This document shows, piece after piece, positions 27,446 through 33,418 of a stretch of DNA of 33,418 nt. The notes beneath the pieces were generated by a model, which saw only the letters and a list, made by a program, of their open reading frames with translations, did not search any database and was not told the DNA's origin. Location of the stretch: positions 1 through 33,418 of the IMG/VR virus record IMGVR_UViG_3300039412_000579; one strand, written 5' to 3'. The stretch's first letter is position 1, and every line of letters starts with the position of its first letter. The position numbers and the translations under genes are program-made. This DNA comes from a virus.

Positions 27446-27709
27446 CTAATTCTTTAGTGTCTTTGACTCAACTTTTTTTAATTGTGTATAATAATCTTCG
27501 CGCTCTTTTAAATGCGCCAAGACTATCTTTGCCGTCTTTATAGGATCATCATGAGTAACATCAGTCTTTTTATCATGACTGCCATGTTCTAACTCAACAT
27601 TAAGCCCCTTAATAAACTGTGAGAGTTTGCACTTCTTCCAGTCTATTTTTAGTTTATCGCCTATTTCTTTAGCTTCATTGGGCCGTATTGGCTTGGTTAG
27701 TTTCTTCAT
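27446..27709 (-). CDS. DUF5661-like phage protein
   Basis: 87 aa: RPNEAKEIGDKLKIDWKKCK, then LSQFIKGLNVELEHGSHDKK, then TDVTHDDPIKTAKIVLAHLK, then EREDYYTQLKKVE. It matches the small DUF5661 family ('A..IG..lgIdW.....eqf..Gl.vELEHG......TnVT.dDp..tgkIalAHL.E..dYYt.L'). The conserved ELEHG and HDDP residues are intact. Function unknown; the family occurs in phage and prophage structural regions. The start overlaps the portal gene by 35 nt. Confidence 0.78.
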   Translation of the reverse strand: MKKLTKPIRPNEAKEIGDKLKIDWKKCKLSQFIKGLNVELEHGSHDKKTDVTHDDPIKTAKIVLAHLKEREDYYTQLKKVESKTLKN

Positions 27710-29738
27710 TTTTAGGTGATTCCTTCTCTACTTGTTGTTCAGATGTGGCTATTTCACGCTCTTTTAATGAGTTCGCTAGATTAATAAGCCTCTCTAAATG
27801 ACCAAGATCTATATCATCTATCTCTTTAAGGAGCTTAACTTTATTAAGTAAGGCCAATTCATCTTCTTTGTTTGCTTCTGCTCGTCTTTCAACAGCGAGG
27901 GCTTCGTTTTCTTTGACACGAGATGCACGTTCAAGACCAAGACCACGATCGGCGATCGCTCGCGCTTTCGATAGTTCTGCTTGTGATTGTTGTAATTGTA
28001 TTTGTGCTTGTGTTTGAGCCTGCTGAATTTGCTGAGATTGCTGCTGATTATCTTGTATCTTCTTAATAAGTTCGGTCTTGTTCTGCAAGGTAGCAGCTTC
28101 AATAAGAGATTCAGTAGGAATCTCAACACCCATCTCACGCAATTGCATAAGCTGAGCAAATTGCATCTGTTTCTGAGTCTCGGTATCAAAGCCCGCTTCA
28201 ACAGAACAATGATATTTACCAAATGCTTTATTATAAAACAATGGCGCAGGCTCTTTGCCTTCAAGAAGAAGTTTTATCTTGCCCGGCGTATAGTTATTCT
28301 GAACTATTTGCATGATTCTTTCGCTTAAAAGCTTCTGTGAATAATCAAGACGATCAAAGATAGGCTGCAAGGTAACAAGACCTGCACGTTGTCGCAAGAA
28401 TGATTGATATCCAGAAGAATCACGTGAATCAACAATCTGCCCCATCAGTTCTTCAGTAATACCGGTCACTGAATAATCAAGTTTACCAAGCGTTTCAAGC
28501 ACCTGGAAGTGCGATGGGGGTACTTGTGGCGGCTGAATCTGTATCACATCGGAGACTTCATAGCCTTTCTTGATCGGAATAACGCGCCCTTGCCCTGTTT
28601 GGAATAGATGCTTAACATCAATAACGGCATTCTCTTTAAATATGAAGCCTGAATTTAGCTGAGACTCGAGTAGATCCATCGATAAGACTAGCCGTCTATT
28701 GAAAAGAAGCTGTGGATCGCGCAATGAACGACATAGGCCTTGGATCCGGCTATAAAAATAAGGGAGCATTTCATTGTAATAACCGACAACAGGAACAAAG
28801 GGAAAGCAATCAAGTCCTGTCGGCTGTGGTCCACAATAAAGGCATTTGTCTTGTACGAGGATGGCTAGATCTACCGTTGGTATTTCTTGATCAATGAGCG
28901 TTACTTGTGGATTCTCTTCAAGGAAACGATCGATATCAATATTATCTTGCTTAGTTATATCAAGTATCTCACCTGTTTGCTTATCAACAAGAAGCTTCTG
29001 TTTGCGATAGGAACGATAGTAAAATTCGTCGTAGGCTAAACGATTCTGTTGGGATTGACCAAGAGCTTCAGGCATATATTGAAAACGCCCTGAGCGGCCA
29101 ATTCCTGCTGGATTTGAGTTCATTCCCATAATCTCGGCATAATGATCGGGAAGTAAATTAGCAACAGCAGCATGAGATAGATAAGAACGACGCCATACAA
29201 ACGAACAGTCTGAGAGATCAAGTTTACGGAAGTACGGATCTATAAAGAAAGCATTAAAGGGTAAGTTGTCGACTTTAATATCGCCTGATACTGGATCTTT
29301 TGAGAAGTCTAAATAGATATGAAGAAGATTCATACCGGTTACACAAGCGCCCTGGTGAAATGCATCAGAGATTGTTTCATAGACACCTTCACGCTTAAAG
29401 ATGCCCATCAGGATCTTAGTCCATTGATCAGCAGTCTCTTGATCGCCGTTCTCCAAAGGAATAATAGTGCTTGTCTTTCTATTCTTTCGTTGGTAGCCCG
29501 AGACGGTATTACAAAGGGGTCTTACTTTATTGAAGTAGAACTGTGAGCCTTTGTTTAACTGGAGATTAGGATTAAGTTCACCTGCAAGAGAGACATCACC
29601 TGCTTCAAGCCTACAATCGATCATCGCTTCAGACCAGTAGATCTGCCATAATGATTGATTAGCAAGATAAACTGAATCAACAAACTTCTTAACAGCAGTA
29701 AAATCTTGTGGCAGTTCTTCAGGCGGTCTCATTAACAT
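27675..29738 (-). CDS. P22-type portal protein
   Basis: 687 aa, the dodecameric portal through which DNA is packaged and ejected. The N-terminal to central part has the family's landmarks (QFYFNKVRPLCNTVSGYQRK near 85, HQGACVTGMNLLHIYLDF, DNLPFNAFFIDPYFRKLDLS), then the crown-region helices VTGITEELMGQIVDSRDSSG and YQSFLRQRAGLVTLQPIFDR. The C-terminal ~130 residues are a long Gln/Glu/Lys-rich helix and coiled coil (QQQSQQIQQAQTQAQIQLQQ), which probably extends as a barrel. Downstream of terminase and upstream of scaffold, the standard order. Confidence 0.88.
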   Translation of the reverse strand: MLMRPPEELPQDFTAVKKFVDSVYLANQSLWQIYWSEAMIDCRLEAGDVSLAGELNPNLQLNKGSQFYFNKVRPLCNTVSGYQRKNRKTSTIIPLENGDQETADQWTKILMGIFKREGVYETISDAFHQGACVTGMNLLHIYLDFSKDPVSGDIKVDNLPFNAFFIDPYFRKLDLSDCSFVWRRSYLSHAAVANLLPDHYAEIMGMNSNPAGIGRSGRFQYMPEALGQSQQNRLAYDEFYYRSYRKQKLLVDKQTGEILDITKQDNIDIDRFLEENPQVTLIDQEIPTVDLAILVQDKCLYCGPQPTGLDCFPFVPVVGYYNEMLPYFYSRIQGLCRSLRDPQLLFNRRLVLSMDLLESQLNSGFIFKENAVIDVKHLFQTGQGRVIPIKKGYEVSDVIQIQPPQVPPSHFQVLETLGKLDYSVTGITEELMGQIVDSRDSSGYQSFLRQRAGLVTLQPIFDRLDYSQKLLSERIMQIVQNNYTPGKIKLLLEGKEPAPLFYNKAFGKYHCSVEAGFDTETQKQMQFAQLMQLREMGVEIPTESLIEAATLQNKTELIKKIQDNQQQSQQIQQAQTQAQIQLQQSQAELSKARAIADRGLGLERASRVKENEALAVERRAEANKEDELALLNKVKLLKEIDDIDLGHLERLINLANSLKEREIATSEQQVEKESPKNEETNQANTAQ

Positions 29739-29810: not shown

Positions 29811-31994
29811 CTATCGTACAAATCTATCCCATGGATTTGATTCAACAAAAAGAGGATTGAGCATAGTTCTTCCTCCATAGAGTGCTTCTTTCTTTATCTG
29901 ATCGAACTTCTCTGCAGTTAATCCTTGCTTACAAAGTGGAATTGCCTGACAAAGATATTTGACGGAATCGCAGTTATGGACAATAGCACCATTTGCTAAT
30001 GAGAAATGACCAACACCTGGTACCGAAATATCCCAAACATCTTCATGATCCGGCAGAGTTTTTACGCTTTCTATAATGCATTGCTTTACAATTGGGATGA
30101 CAGTATTTCTGGGTATGCCCATTTTTTCTAATAAGGCAGCTGAACTCTTTATTGCAATACAAACAATTTCTCGGTTCTCTTCTCCATATTGTCCAATTAG
30201 CTGTCCGTTGAGCATGTCTCGAATGCCATATTTTTCCTGCCTCTGATCCATGCCACTCTGCTGCTCTATCTCTAGCTTTTTGGCTAAAAACTCTATTAAT
30301 TGGTTTGTGATATGTTTTGCGATGGTCTGCTCTTGGTAAGCATTCAATATTGTATAAGCAGTTGTTAATGGAACAATGATCTCGGTGGTGTATTTCACAA
30401 TCTTTTGGTATTTCTCCAAAAGCGAATCTCCATACGTCTCTATGCAAGAGAGATCCACCTTTTGAAAAGTATTTTTCATTTGGATAAATTCTGTACAGAT
30501 ACCCATTAAAATATTGAGTCCCTGCATCAAGCTCGATTGGATCTTGATATAATTCGTTAGGCTTTCTGATGACTTCCACCCGTTCTCCGTTAAGAATAAA
30601 TGATCCGGCGTGCATTTCACTGTTGTACCGTCTACAAATACAACTTCCACAATATTCGCATTTATTCTTGTTTTCTGTGCTTTCCGACATTTATACCATC
30701 CTTGTAATGTTAATACTTCATCATTATCTTCTATTAACATTATCTGACGCATTCCGTTACGCGTCAAGACTAAAGTATCTCCAGTAAAACAAAAATTACT
30801 GCTCCAATCGTGAACGGGCTTATCTGAGTAACACTGCTTATCATCATTCCACTCTCGGTGGTAAAATTCCATTGCCTCTACTAATCTCTTACATCTTCTT
30901 TCATCAATAACAAAGCGAGGGAAGTGAGTCATGACGTTTTCGATAGCATTCTCTATACGAACCTGCGGAAGTACTTCAAAGTCTAAACCTAGTTGTGCTG
31001 CTTTCTCGAATCGAGATATAGCACCATCACCAAACTCTCTAACGGCAAGATCATGAGGACCAAAGTGAGTTCCATAAAGGTAAGGCTTTTCTCGTATTGT
31101 CTTCACATAATGATCAAGTCCCATACCACTTGAAGCATAGCAATCTATAATGCGTATTGAATTACCTTCTGAGGAGATCTGAAAGAAGAGAATAACACAA
31201 AGATCACGAACACCAATATCCCATGCTGTGTAGGTAAGCATGGAAGGGTCCCAGGGAACATGGGATATTTGGTTGTTCTCACGTATTTGATCTACAAGAC
31301 GACCATATATAGATCCTTCGATACCACGTGAGAAACTGCATTCATACTCTTGAGCATAAAGCTCTGCAGACATCTGTGCCTTTTCAAGCTCAAGTATCTC
31401 TGCAGGAATATGTTTTATATCTGAGGTTTTTTTGATATAAACAAACCAATCTTTGAGATTAGAAGCTACATTAAAAAGCTGATAACAATGATTACGGCTA
31501 TAAGGAGTCGTTATCATCAATATCCAACCACCATTATTTGCTAAGATAGGTCGTGCAAAGTCATAAGCTTTTGGATTGCAACGACTCCATTCTGAAAAGA
31601 TAATTGCATAAGGATTACGACCAACAATAGAAGTATCATAAGAATCTGCACCAATGATCTGTATTTGAGAATCATTCTTGAAACAGATCTTCATCTCAGA
31701 GTGATTAATGTTCTTGATGACTTCTTTAGGGATATAATCAAGAAGTTTTTTACCATCTGTTGTAATACAATCCCAGATAACACGGCGCCCTTGCTGAAAG
31801 GTTGGCAGAGCATACAGGATAGAACAAGTCTTAGCCATTGCTTGATGTATACAGAGATTGAAAGCGCAGATATCTTTCCCTGAACGGCGCGGAAGAATTG
31901 CTAATACTTTTCGATAGCCTTGCTTAGCAATAGCATCCCATATTGGTATTTGATAATCACGTAGTTTGAAGTCATTGATATCAATCGCATCCAT
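29811..31994 (-). CDS. terL: Terminase large subunit, interrupted by an in-frame intein
   Basis: 727-aa precursor; after intein removal (273 aa) the mature packaging motor is 454 aa, a normal TerL size. The ATPase has Walker A LPRRSGKD (34-41), Walker B AIIFSE (130-135) and coupling motif ITTP (161-164). The RNase H-like nuclease has AWDIG (Asp259), IIDCYASSG (Asp284) and, after splicing, HDWSSNF-CDSVKYL with the third acidic residue (Asp676). The intein lies between F401 and C675, in the most conserved nuclease motif, so an unspliced protein cannot complete the active site. The start overlaps the previous gene by 14 nt. Confidence 0.93.
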   Translation of the reverse strand: MDAIDINDFKLRDYQIPIWDAIAKQGYRKVLAILPRRSGKDICAFNLCIHQAMAKTCSILYALPTFQQGRRVIWDCITTDGKKLLDYIPKEVIKNINHSEMKICFKNDSQIQIIGADSYDTSIVGRNPYAIIFSEWSRCNPKAYDFARPILANNGGWILMITTPYSRNHCYQLFNVASNLKDWFVYIKKTSDIKHIPAEILELEKAQMSAELYAQEYECSFSRGIEGSIYGRLVDQIRENNQISHVPWDPSMLTYTAWDIGVRDLCVILFFQISSEGNSIRIIDCYASSGMGLDHYVKTIREKPYLYGTHFGPHDLAVREFGDGAISRFEKAAQLGLDFEVLPQVRIENAIENVMTHFPRFVIDERRCKRLVEAMEFYHREWNDDKQCYSDKPVHDWSSNFCFTGDTLVLTRNGMRQIMLIEDNDEVLTLQGWYKCRKAQKTRINANIVEVVFVDGTTVKCTPDHLFLTENGWKSSESLTNYIKIQSSLMQGLNILMGICTEFIQMKNTFQKVDLSCIETYGDSLLEKYQKIVKYTTEIIVPLTTAYTILNAYQEQTIAKHITNQLIEFLAKKLEIEQQSGMDQRQEKYGIRDMLNGQLIGQYGEENREIVCIAIKSSAALLEKMGIPRNTVIPIVKQCIIESVKTLPDHEDVWDISVPGVGHFSLANGAIVHNCDSVKYLCQAIPLCKQGLTAEKFDQIKKEALYGGRTMLNPLFVESNPWDRFVR
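29973..30791 (-). mobile_element. TerL intein, splicing-competent, 273 aa
   Basis: In-frame intein at residues 402-674. Block A is CFTGDTLVLT with catalytic Cys402. Block B is GTTVKCTPDHLFLT with the T-x-x-H pair (T462, H465). Block F is VWDISVPGVGHFSLANG. Block G is AIVHN with penultimate His673 and terminal Asn674. The +1 residue is Cys675. All residues needed for class 1 splicing are present. Between blocks B and F the intein frame carries about 170 residues with no homing-endonuclease motif. In a different frame the same DNA encodes a complete HNH endonuclease (30043-30690). Confidence 0.92.
30043..30690 (-). CDS. HNH homing endonuclease nested out-of-frame in the TerL intein
   Basis: 215 aa, entirely inside the intein DNA but in another frame on the same strand. 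It has its own start: AAGGA at 30699-30703, 8 nt before ATG at 30690. Residues 63-128 form an HNH_3-type nuclease: NGYLYRIYPNEKYF, LLHRDVWRFAFGEIPKD, CEIHHRDHCSINNCLYNIEC (His101/102, Asn110 and nearby), and ADHRKTYH. The N-terminus has CEYCGSCIC. The C-terminus (176-201) is a zinc knuckle, NCLYCNKEFSC...KYCHPNCK, with a basic tail. It starts 101 nt inside the intein and ends 70 nt before the end of the intein. It would cut intein-less terL alleles and spread the intein. Confidence 0.88.
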   Translation of the reverse strand: MSESTENKNKCEYCGSCICRRYNSEMHAGSFILNGERVEVIRKPNELYQDPIELDAGTQYFNGYLYRIYPNEKYFSKGGSLLHRDVWRFAFGEIPKDCEIHHRDHCSINNCLYNIECLPRADHRKTYHKPINRVFSQKARDRAAEWHGSEAGKIWHSRHAQRTANWTIWRREPRNCLYCNKEFSCLIRKNGHTQKYCHPNCKAMHYRKRKNSAGS

Positions 31995-32178: not shown

Positions 32179-32680
32179 CTTTCTTCTCGGTTGGTAATGG
32201 TGAATTAAATATGTTAGGAAATTGTTTGCTTTCTATTGGATTCTCTTCGAAGTTTTTGAGCATAGCCTTACGTTCTTCTGCTTCTTTCCAATCATTTGAT
32301 ATCTTATAAAGAAGTGACATAGCAGCATCAATTCCTTTATTAGCTAATGCATTTGCTTCTAATTGAACTTTTGCTTTTTTATAGGCAGATGCCAATTCTT
32401 GATGTCTATTAAGCATATCATTCCATTCATCATGATCTAAACACTGGAAAGCAAGAAATTGCGCTATTGTTGTTGAATAAGGAAGCTGAGCATAAACCAT
32501 AAGCTCACGAATCAGCTCTTCTAATCTATGACCTTCAAAATAAGCGCTTCCAAAGCTTTGTCTCAGTTTATATTTATCATAAAAGGAGGAATCAAGGTTC
32601 TTTTTGAGGCCCCAGGTTACGGACAATTTGGGTACTCTTTTACTATATCTGCTATTATTTGATTTTTTATTAGCAACCAT
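32171..32680 (-). CDS. Putative terminase small subunit
   Basis: 169 aa directly upstream of TerL. Basic N-terminus (MVANKKSNNSRYSKRVPKLS), then a helical DNA-recognition-like part (HRLEELIRELMVYAQLPYST), then TIAQFLAFQCLDHDEWNDML, NRHQELASAYKKAKVQLEAN and ALANKGIDAAMSLLYKISND. The 'AQFLA...L....W..........L..AY+.AK.......A' layout is that of small terminases that recognise phage DNA and hand it to TerL. The call is supported by position; the sequence family is not certain. Confidence 0.68.
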   Translation of the reverse strand: MVANKKSNNSRYSKRVPKLSVTWGLKKNLDSSFYDKYKLRQSFGSAYFEGHRLEELIRELMVYAQLPYSTTIAQFLAFQCLDHDEWNDMLNRHQELASAYKKAKVQLEANALANKGIDAAMSLLYKISNDWKEAEERKAMLKNFEENPIESKQFPNIFNSPLPTEKKDV

Positions 32681-33083
32681 TGTAGTCTTCTTTCAATGGC
32701 AATTCTGATAGAGTTAATTCCACGCGAGGATTTTTATCATATTGTTTTATAGCACAGACTTTACAGATTAGCGAGTCATCTGCAATGATGTGTACTTCAG
32801 TCATTACATCAAAATAATACTTCAGAAGATTATCAATATCTGGTTTTACAAATGGATAGGTATGTCTATCTTTTTTATAGATAGGGATTCTCATATAAAA
32901 GATAATATCGCAATAAAGAGGTTTAGAGAATTCTGGTTCATTGTTCATTTGAGAAACGAAATGAATACCAGAAGCAAGTTTCTCATTGCGTTGCATATCA
33001 TAAATATGTTTTCTTTTAAAGCTGACGCCCGTTCTCTTCCAAGCTATTGGTTCGAGCGGAATAACAAAATGCTTTTCTCTCAT
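32670..33083 (-). CDS. rusA: RusA-family Holliday-junction resolvase
   Basis: 137 aa. RusA-type endodeoxyribonuclease that cleaves Holliday junctions or branched DNA and can prepare concatemers for packaging. The signature PDIDNLLKYYFDVM (Asp82, Asp84) followed by a second acidic patch ADD (Asp102/103) holds the catalytic carboxylates. The N-terminal IPLEPIAWKRTGVSFKRKHI matches the family's start ('P.pK.R.R......yt'). AAGGAG before the ATG lies in a 5-bp hairpin TCTCC-TTGAA-GGAGA. The 3' end overlaps the small terminase start. Confidence 0.85.
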   Translation of the reverse strand: MREKHFVIPLEPIAWKRTGVSFKRKHIYDMQRNEKLASGIHFVSQMNNEPEFSKPLYCDIIFYMRIPIYKKDRHTYPFVKPDIDNLLKYYFDVMTEVHIIADDSLICKVCAIKQYDKNPRVELTLSELPLKEDYNGC

Positions 33084-33112: not shown

Positions 33113-33418
33113 TTAAGATCTTTCTTCAAGCCAACAATTGGAACAACGAGGTTGATAGGTATCAGATCCACCTACTTTAATAAGTTCTTGGTCTAAGGGA
33201 GCTGGTTTATTACGATAAAATCGTTGTGTATATAAAGCAACACCGTTGCAAGGTTGTCCATCAATCATACGACTACATTTAGCAGCAAAAGCAACGACGG
33301 TATTCGCAGTAGCAAAAAGTTCTCTACTTACTGGCCAATGATCACAACGATAATCACAATCAAGGCCTGAAACATAGATACGTTTACCCATAGAGCGTAA
33401 TCGTTCTAAAATGGCAAC
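33113..33418 (-). CDS. tdk: Thymidine kinase, C-terminal part (cut by window edge)
   Basis: The frame is open to the right edge: VAILERLRSMGKRIYVSGLD, then CDYRCDHWPVSRELFATANT, then a zinc region and VGGSDTYQPRCSNCWLEERS. The GLD-x-D-(F/Y)-R lasso motif, (Y/T)QR and VGG-x-x-x-Y-x-P-R-C are those of type II thymidine kinases, which phosphorylate thymidine to dTMP. Of the usual four zinc cysteines the first pair is spread out: CSRMIDGQPC (8 residues between the Cys) instead of C-x2-C. The second pair is CSNC. The start codon and P-loop lie outside the window; the internal ATG at 33391 is not the real start. Confidence 0.85.
   Translation of the reverse strand, partial: VAILERLRSMGKRIYVSGLDCDYRCDHWPVSRELFATANTVVAFAAKCSRMIDGQPCNGVALYTQRFYRNKPAPLDQELIKVGGSDTYQPRCSNCWLEERS

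Follow-up and report, generated by a model that had tools for sequence, protein, structure and literature searches.

An HNH endonuclease gene in a second reading frame of a predicted intein within a phage terminase gene

HNH endonucleases borne by introns are common in phages, and HNH proteins are also said, by Kala in 2014, to figure in phage packaging. For inteins, Dassa et al. in 2009 reportedly described fractured genes, in which split inteins carry a free-standing endonuclease gene between the two halves. Actinobacteriophage inteins of non-canonical architecture are said to be the subject of a 2025 preprint by Gosselin, Arsenault and Gogarten, in which overlapping frames may be described and which may overlap with the present findings. 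The single published analogue returned by our literature search is the ShiLan domain, which together with the Pacc40 insertion represents out-of-frame HNH genes within phage methylase genes (Arsenault, Gosselin and Gogarten 2025, PMC11855218).

The stretch of DNA analysed here (33,418 nucleotides, IMG/VR virus record IMGVR_UViG_3300039412_000579; hereafter the window) carries a terminase gene (terL) with a predicted intein and, on the same DNA, an HNH endonuclease gene (Table 1). The TerL frame is uninterrupted by stop codons throughout, insert included, TerL being a single ORF and not the two ORFs of a fractured gene. The intein splits the TerL nuclease motif, with HDWSSNF on one side and CDSVKYL on the other. 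The neighbouring genes encode a portal protein (27675-29738), a RusA-like resolvase (32670-33083) and a thymidine-kinase-like protein (33113-33391), and PHROG comparison of several further ORFs of the window gave no match.

Table 1. Positions of the features in the window and in related layouts.
Feature	Record	Position	Strand	Remarks
TerL ORF, 727 aa	window	29811..31994	-	PHROG TerL matches, joined flanks
Intein, 273 aa	window	29973..30791	-	PF14890, TIGR01445/TIGR01443, Foldseek
Intein block A (CFTGDTLVLTRNG)	window	30753..30791	-	
Intein block B (DGTTVKCTPDHLFLTENG)	window	30579..30632	-	HNH N-terminal region on same DNA; constraint in both frames
Intein linker, intein frame, residues ~90-235	window	30085..30524	-	disordered by-product of the HNH gene (pLDDT, dN/dS, resampling)
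Intein block F (DVWDISVPGVGHFSL)	window	29997..30041	-	begins right past the HNH stop codon
Intein block G (NGAIVHN)	window	29973..29993	-	
HNH endonuclease gene, 215 aa, ATG start	window	30043..30690	-	+2 relative to intein frame; PF13392, phrog_15471
Shine-Dalgarno AAGGA	window	30699..30703	-	8 nt 5' of the HNH ATG, within the intein coding frame
HNH N-terminal CxxC (CEYC)	window	30649..30660	-	overlaps an intein beta-strand
HNH catalytic motif region (H..HH..N..H)	window	30322..30447	-	
C-terminal zinc knuckle, first half CLYC	window	30154..30165	-	both Cys invariant, 41 sequences
C-terminal zinc knuckle, second half CHPNC	window	30088..30102	-	both Cys invariant, 41 sequences
Fractured terL	L017	1645-3982		N-intein half and stop, HNH ORF, C-intein half with TerL C-terminus
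Fractured terL	L318	161-3889		same arrangement
DnaX/RFC-like clamp loader, host ORF	L016	2662-4743		contains the intein
DUF559/Vsr-like zinc-knuckle nuclease	L016	3263-4075		+1 frame, out of frame in the intein

In the intein frame, the Pfam model Intein_splicing (PF14890) was matched with E = 6.5e-10, and the NCBI intein terminal models TIGR01445 and TIGR01443 were matched as well. The residues C1, T61-P-D-H64, H272-N273 and the +1 Cys make up a complete class-1-type splicing set. In the AlphaFold model both Hint halves reached a pLDDT of about 97 while the linker stayed at 30-46 over most of its length, and Foldseek grouped the model with the DnaB and gp41-1 mini-inteins; by all three approaches the Hint fold is contributed by both ends of the insert. 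The insert of the window would accordingly be classed as a class-1-type intein, and its splicing is predicted.

The HNH frame matched the Pfam family HNH_3 (PF13392) above the cutoff (E = 3.1e-8) and the PHROG HNH family phrog_15471 (E = 6.9e-19). The residues H83, H101, H102, N114 and H123 are invariant in 41 sequences and the core was modelled by AlphaFold with pLDDT above 90, both the motif residues and the fold being those of an HNH endonuclease; the N-terminal 40 residues gave a low-confidence model despite their conservation. A sequence search of the PDB with the HNH profile gave one marginal unrelated match and nothing else. A sequence-only reading of this DNA had proposed a complete 215-aa HNH enzyme in a second frame inside the intein, all splicing residues being kept without an in-frame endonuclease domain, and had assigned to the HNH gene its own ribosome-binding site and a C-terminal zinc knuckle. 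All of this was borne out: the coordinates were exact with Pfam and PHROG matches, Intein_splicing being found in one translation and HNH_3 in the other; C1, TPDH, HN and the +1 Cys were confirmed; AAGGA precedes the ATG by 8 nt, with the Shine-Dalgarno sequence conserved among the members; and the Cys residues of CLYC and CHPNC do not vary in the 41 sequences.

The lone Foldseek match of the HNH model was the intron-encoded I-HmuI, at the weak value of E = 0.21. This structural resemblance would favour a self-splicing RNA intron as the carrier of the HNH gene, the intein-like frame being a coincidence, but such an origin is extremely improbable, as no Rfam match was detected between 29500 and 31200 even at the relaxed threshold of E <= 0.1, and in each member the host frame runs through the complete insert without a stop and encodes a Hint domain.

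Scanning IMG/VR with profiles of the HNH and intein alignments yielded a collection of 88 distinct full-length inteins, the window included, and this homologue set consists mostly of metagenomic contigs. For all 88, the intein frame is stop-free and the HNH frame is open at the identical offset, +2 in every case rather than in frame as for a canonical nested endonuclease. The overlap, noted beforehand for the window alone, is thus carried by 88 distinct inteins, and none of the homologues found combines a disrupted HNH frame with a persisting intein. A sequencing or assembly indel, by which an ordinary in-frame endonuclease domain was detached from the intein, could give the frame offset in one contig, and nothing further speaks in its favour; it is refuted by the recurrence of the offset, since 88 distinct sequences, drawn from separate assemblies and from isolate genomes, cannot all have acquired the same indel, and its probability is practically nil. 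The identical layout is present in TerL of Tetrasphaera phage TJE1, Acinetobacter phage Highwayman and Rhodobacteraceae phage LS06-2018-MD07, in the records of which a single terL CDS is annotated.

Since searches with HNH and intein profiles could favour elements that retain HNH, a search with the TerL exteins only was added. Of the 160 relatives obtained, 148 lack the insert; each of the 12 invaded ones carries both intein and HNH, likewise out of frame in those checked for frame. Alignments replaced the single-sequence extein query, because the latter retrieved near-copies of the window alone. The HNH-profile search of genome contigs gave no relative.

The splicing residues are conserved throughout this collection, with C1 in 88/88, the terminal N in 88/88 (81 as HN), and C, S or T at the +1 position in 54, 33 and 1 members, respectively. 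We consider it very improbable that the insert is a tolerated in-frame loop that does not splice, the Hint domain being a relic. The ShiLan domain is a precedent, being an insertion that does not splice and yet holds an HNH gene out of frame (PMC11855218), and splicing of the window intein is itself a prediction. Against this, C1, the terminal N and a +1 C/S/T are retained in every member, the Hint residues are under purifying selection even where overprinted, both Hint halves are modelled at pLDDT ~97, and an unspliced insert of about 270 aa within the TerL nuclease motif should disrupt the enzyme.

Selection was then measured for each frame. Under a null model in which synonymous codons were permuted within each HNH gene, the protein and the codon usage being held, 208.8 stop codons were expected in the intein frame of 87 genes (about 2.4 per gene) and none was observed, in agreement with the proposal that the by-product linker must stay stop-free; in the third frame the number was as expected (1684 observed versus 1621 expected). 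By counting substitutions according to their effect in each frame for 13 independent pairs, dN/dS in the block B zone was 0.56 (0.40-0.73) for HNH and 0.42 (0.32-0.55) for the intein, and in the linker zone 0.29 (0.22-0.35) for HNH and 0.94 (0.79-1.11) for the intein. Synonymous resampling, in which the null for HNH holds the intein protein alone and the null for the intein holds HNH alone, gave the same pattern: identity in the block B zone was 0.537 versus 0.238 in the null for HNH and 0.616 versus 0.256 for the intein, while the intein-frame identity of the linker was 0.267 versus 0.254. In the block B overlap both frames, and not the intein alone, are under purifying selection, and downstream thereof HNH alone is constrained.

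From the dN/dS values and the resampling, about 46-52 codons are truly dual-constrained. The figure of 79% dual-coding put forward earlier therefore stands by length, the overlap being 648 of the 819 nt of the intein, but not as dual constraint. For the remaining ~160 codons, HNH constraint together with avoidance of stops accounts for the pattern, and the linker is a by-product. Block B does lie within the overlap as claimed, but its TxxH codons do not encode the Cys-rich HNH N-terminus: they encode HNH residues about 27-31 (HAGSF), and the HNH Cys cluster (residues 11-19) corresponds to the preceding intein strand (residues 45-53).

A start codon with a Shine-Dalgarno sequence of at least 4 nt was found for 80% of the members, compared with 25% (maximum 37%) after intein-preserving resampling, supporting internal initiation. 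The same strand and the overlapping frames would also fit the synthesis of HNH as a fusion to the intein N-half by programmed ribosomal frameshift without internal initiation. This is again very improbable, in view of the start codons and Shine-Dalgarno sequences that are under selection inside the intein frame and of the stop codon often present in the HNH frame directly upstream of the HNH start region.

The free-standing relatives of HNH align from residue ~40 onward, most of them from 48-61, and a consensus of the N-terminal ~57 residues gave no convincing match in phage records. The lack of a counterpart for the first ~50 residues in the free-standing relatives fits overprinting of the block B DNA, and such an origin of the HNH N-terminus is suggested but not proven by these alignments.

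Several lines of evidence indicate that the element is mobile. The TerL N-extein of L156 is 94% identical to that of the invaded L037 yet uninterrupted (HDWSSHWADAMRYLC versus HDWSSHW and CDAMRYLC flanking the insert). Between L037 and L073 the exteins are 78% identical and HNH 44%, and between L066 and L108 the exteins are 20% identical and HNH 67%. Such insert-free close relatives of TerL, together with HNH and intein identities discordant with those of TerL, point to a mobile element. The insertion point shifts by up to four codons between relatives, within a single TerL nuclease motif and wherever a C, S or T is available as the +1 residue. Its four adjacent registers lie directly behind W (28), one residue further (11), directly behind H (15) and one residue past that position (33). 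The HNH tree needs up to 26 register changes, with moderate support and many weak branches. The attributes of a homing endonuclease, namely a self-removing type of element, intein-free alleles and horizontal spread, are all found here. In the intein-free TerL of L161 and L166 the +1 residue is Cys, most uninvaded relatives having Ala; intein loss or a pre-adapted target is possible.

The HNH family also occurs free-standing beside terminase genes, in several phages directly adjoining them, and such positions would suit a terminase-associated packaging nuclease with the intein as its passenger, rather than a homing enzyme; a packaging role of this kind has been proposed for HNH proteins encoded beside terminase genes in other phages. 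We regard this as unlikely, for HNH is absent from 148 of the 160 related TerL genes, its identities are discordant with those of TerL, and within this TerL-intein family it lies invariably inside the intein, as homing predicts. The earlier view of HNH as a selfish gene that could be expressed separately is supported by the start signals, the per-frame selection, the empty sites and the discordant identities.

We therefore propose, with considerable confidence, a two-product element of the phage terminase gene, composed of a splicing intein and a separate homing HNH endonuclease in the +2 frame. One mRNA would be read in two frames. Initiation at the TerL start would give a TerL-intein-TerL precursor, from which the Hint domain (intein residues ~1-88 and ~236-273) would excise itself to restore TerL, and initiation at the internal Shine-Dalgarno/ATG within the intein would give the free HNH endonuclease. 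This enzyme would most likely cut intein-free terL at or near the motif HDW(S/A)SHxADAFRY, and repair templated by the invaded copy would spread the element (homing). Over the HNH core the intein frame would be kept free of stops and otherwise unconstrained, and the HNH N-terminus would be overprinted on the region of block B, in which conservation extends to both proteins. The sequences themselves show the two open frames, the selection in each of them, the conserved start signals, the empty sites and the discordant identities; we infer the splicing, the separate translation, the cleavage site and the homing.

Related layouts were found in other terminase genes. In L017 and L318 the host is divided into two ORFs, as in a fractured gene, and in L017 the ORF of the C-half overlaps HNH out of frame. 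TerL of podovirus ctRVW222 (L027 3001-3400) is interrupted at the equivalent motif by a mini-intein of 133 aa, which belongs to the same Hint family and lacks HNH. These layouts show that the intein and HNH are separable modules.

A second class involves an unrelated nuclease. The out-of-frame nuclease in the clamp loader intein of L016 matches PF04480 with E = 1.5e-14, and relatives occur in 37 Vibrio phages and three further phages (40 records); in 3/3 records examined, including that of Vibrio phage K391, the nuclease lies out of frame inside a helicase intein. A scan of IMG/VR gave 80 DUF559 loci. A long ORF, always in one particular other frame, extends across 75 of them, with Hint signatures in 73 of the 75. 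Stop codons in the host frame numbered 0 versus 784 expected for 67 distinct genes. The hosts among ten loci examined are helicases of the ResIII and SNF2 types and a DnaX-like clamp loader. K391 and Rostov M3 have 57% identity in the nuclease frame, compared with 32% in the intein linker. DUF559 nucleases in the +1 frame of Hint-bearing inteins were observed in the Vibrio phage helicases L312, L313 and L314 and in loci L321-L400 (about 70 metaviral contigs). The Vibrio dual-frame genes are annotated merely as helicase or coil-containing protein. The helicase ORFs of L327 (1748-5383) and L361 (1280-5245) carry an apparent in-frame LAGLIDADG endonuclease (Hom_end/LAGLIDADG_3 matches) in addition to the dual-frame DUF559 intein.

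Altogether, counting both unrelated kinds of nuclease, dual-frame inteins occur in several named phages and in no fewer than 150 phage contigs besides the window. Independent origins are indicated, since the two nucleases are unrelated and occupy different frames relative to the intein. It is on balance likely that dual-frame inteins form a general, so far undescribed class in phages, adopted independently by at least two nuclease families, the TerL HNH N-terminus being overprinted.

Inteins carry the mobility enzyme as an in-frame domain or, when split, as a gene separating the two halves; the present arrangement would be a third way, in which writing in two frames avoids the fusion of two proteins. 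In the TerL class, if the proposal is true, the selfish gene and the splicing domain are tied together in shared codons. The collection is also a large natural resource for the study of gene overlap, in which constraint can be measured frame by frame. In public records, including those of TJE1, Highwayman, LS06 and the Vibrio phages, the annotation of such terminases, helicases and clamp loaders as one long protein leaves the nested endonuclease genes unnoticed. With the cultured carriers, direct tests of splicing, internal translation and homing are possible.

Compared with known systems, the TerL element shares with the ShiLan domain an HNH gene in another frame of an insertion kept open in the host frame and a sporadic distribution suggesting homing (PMC11855218). 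ShiLan has no splicing domain and no detectable ribosome-binding site, and resides in a methylase of few phages (PMC11855218), whereas the TerL element has a complete Hint domain, a conserved Shine-Dalgarno sequence and an HNH gene overlapping a splicing motif; the window insert is not of the ShiLan type, in which the host frame is without a splicing domain. With canonical inteins, such as those of mycobacteriophage TerL (PMC5050341), it shares the Hint domain, the TerL host, the usual site of the endonuclease between blocks B and F and, as proposed here, homing. In canonical inteins, however, the endonuclease is an in-frame domain and not a separate gene in another frame, and the mycobacteriophage TerL inteins are inserted in the ATPase domain (PMC5050341) instead of the TerL nuclease motif. 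Fractured genes likewise have a separate endonuclease gene in the intein locus, of the same HNH family in L017 and L318, but there the halves are separated by the endonuclease, while here one continuous intein polypeptide is overlapped by it. The HNH enzymes of phage group I introns (I-HmuI type), the nearest structural match though a weak one, are also encoded by a separate ORF in a self-removing insert; in the present case the host is an intein, and its DNA must therefore code in two frames.
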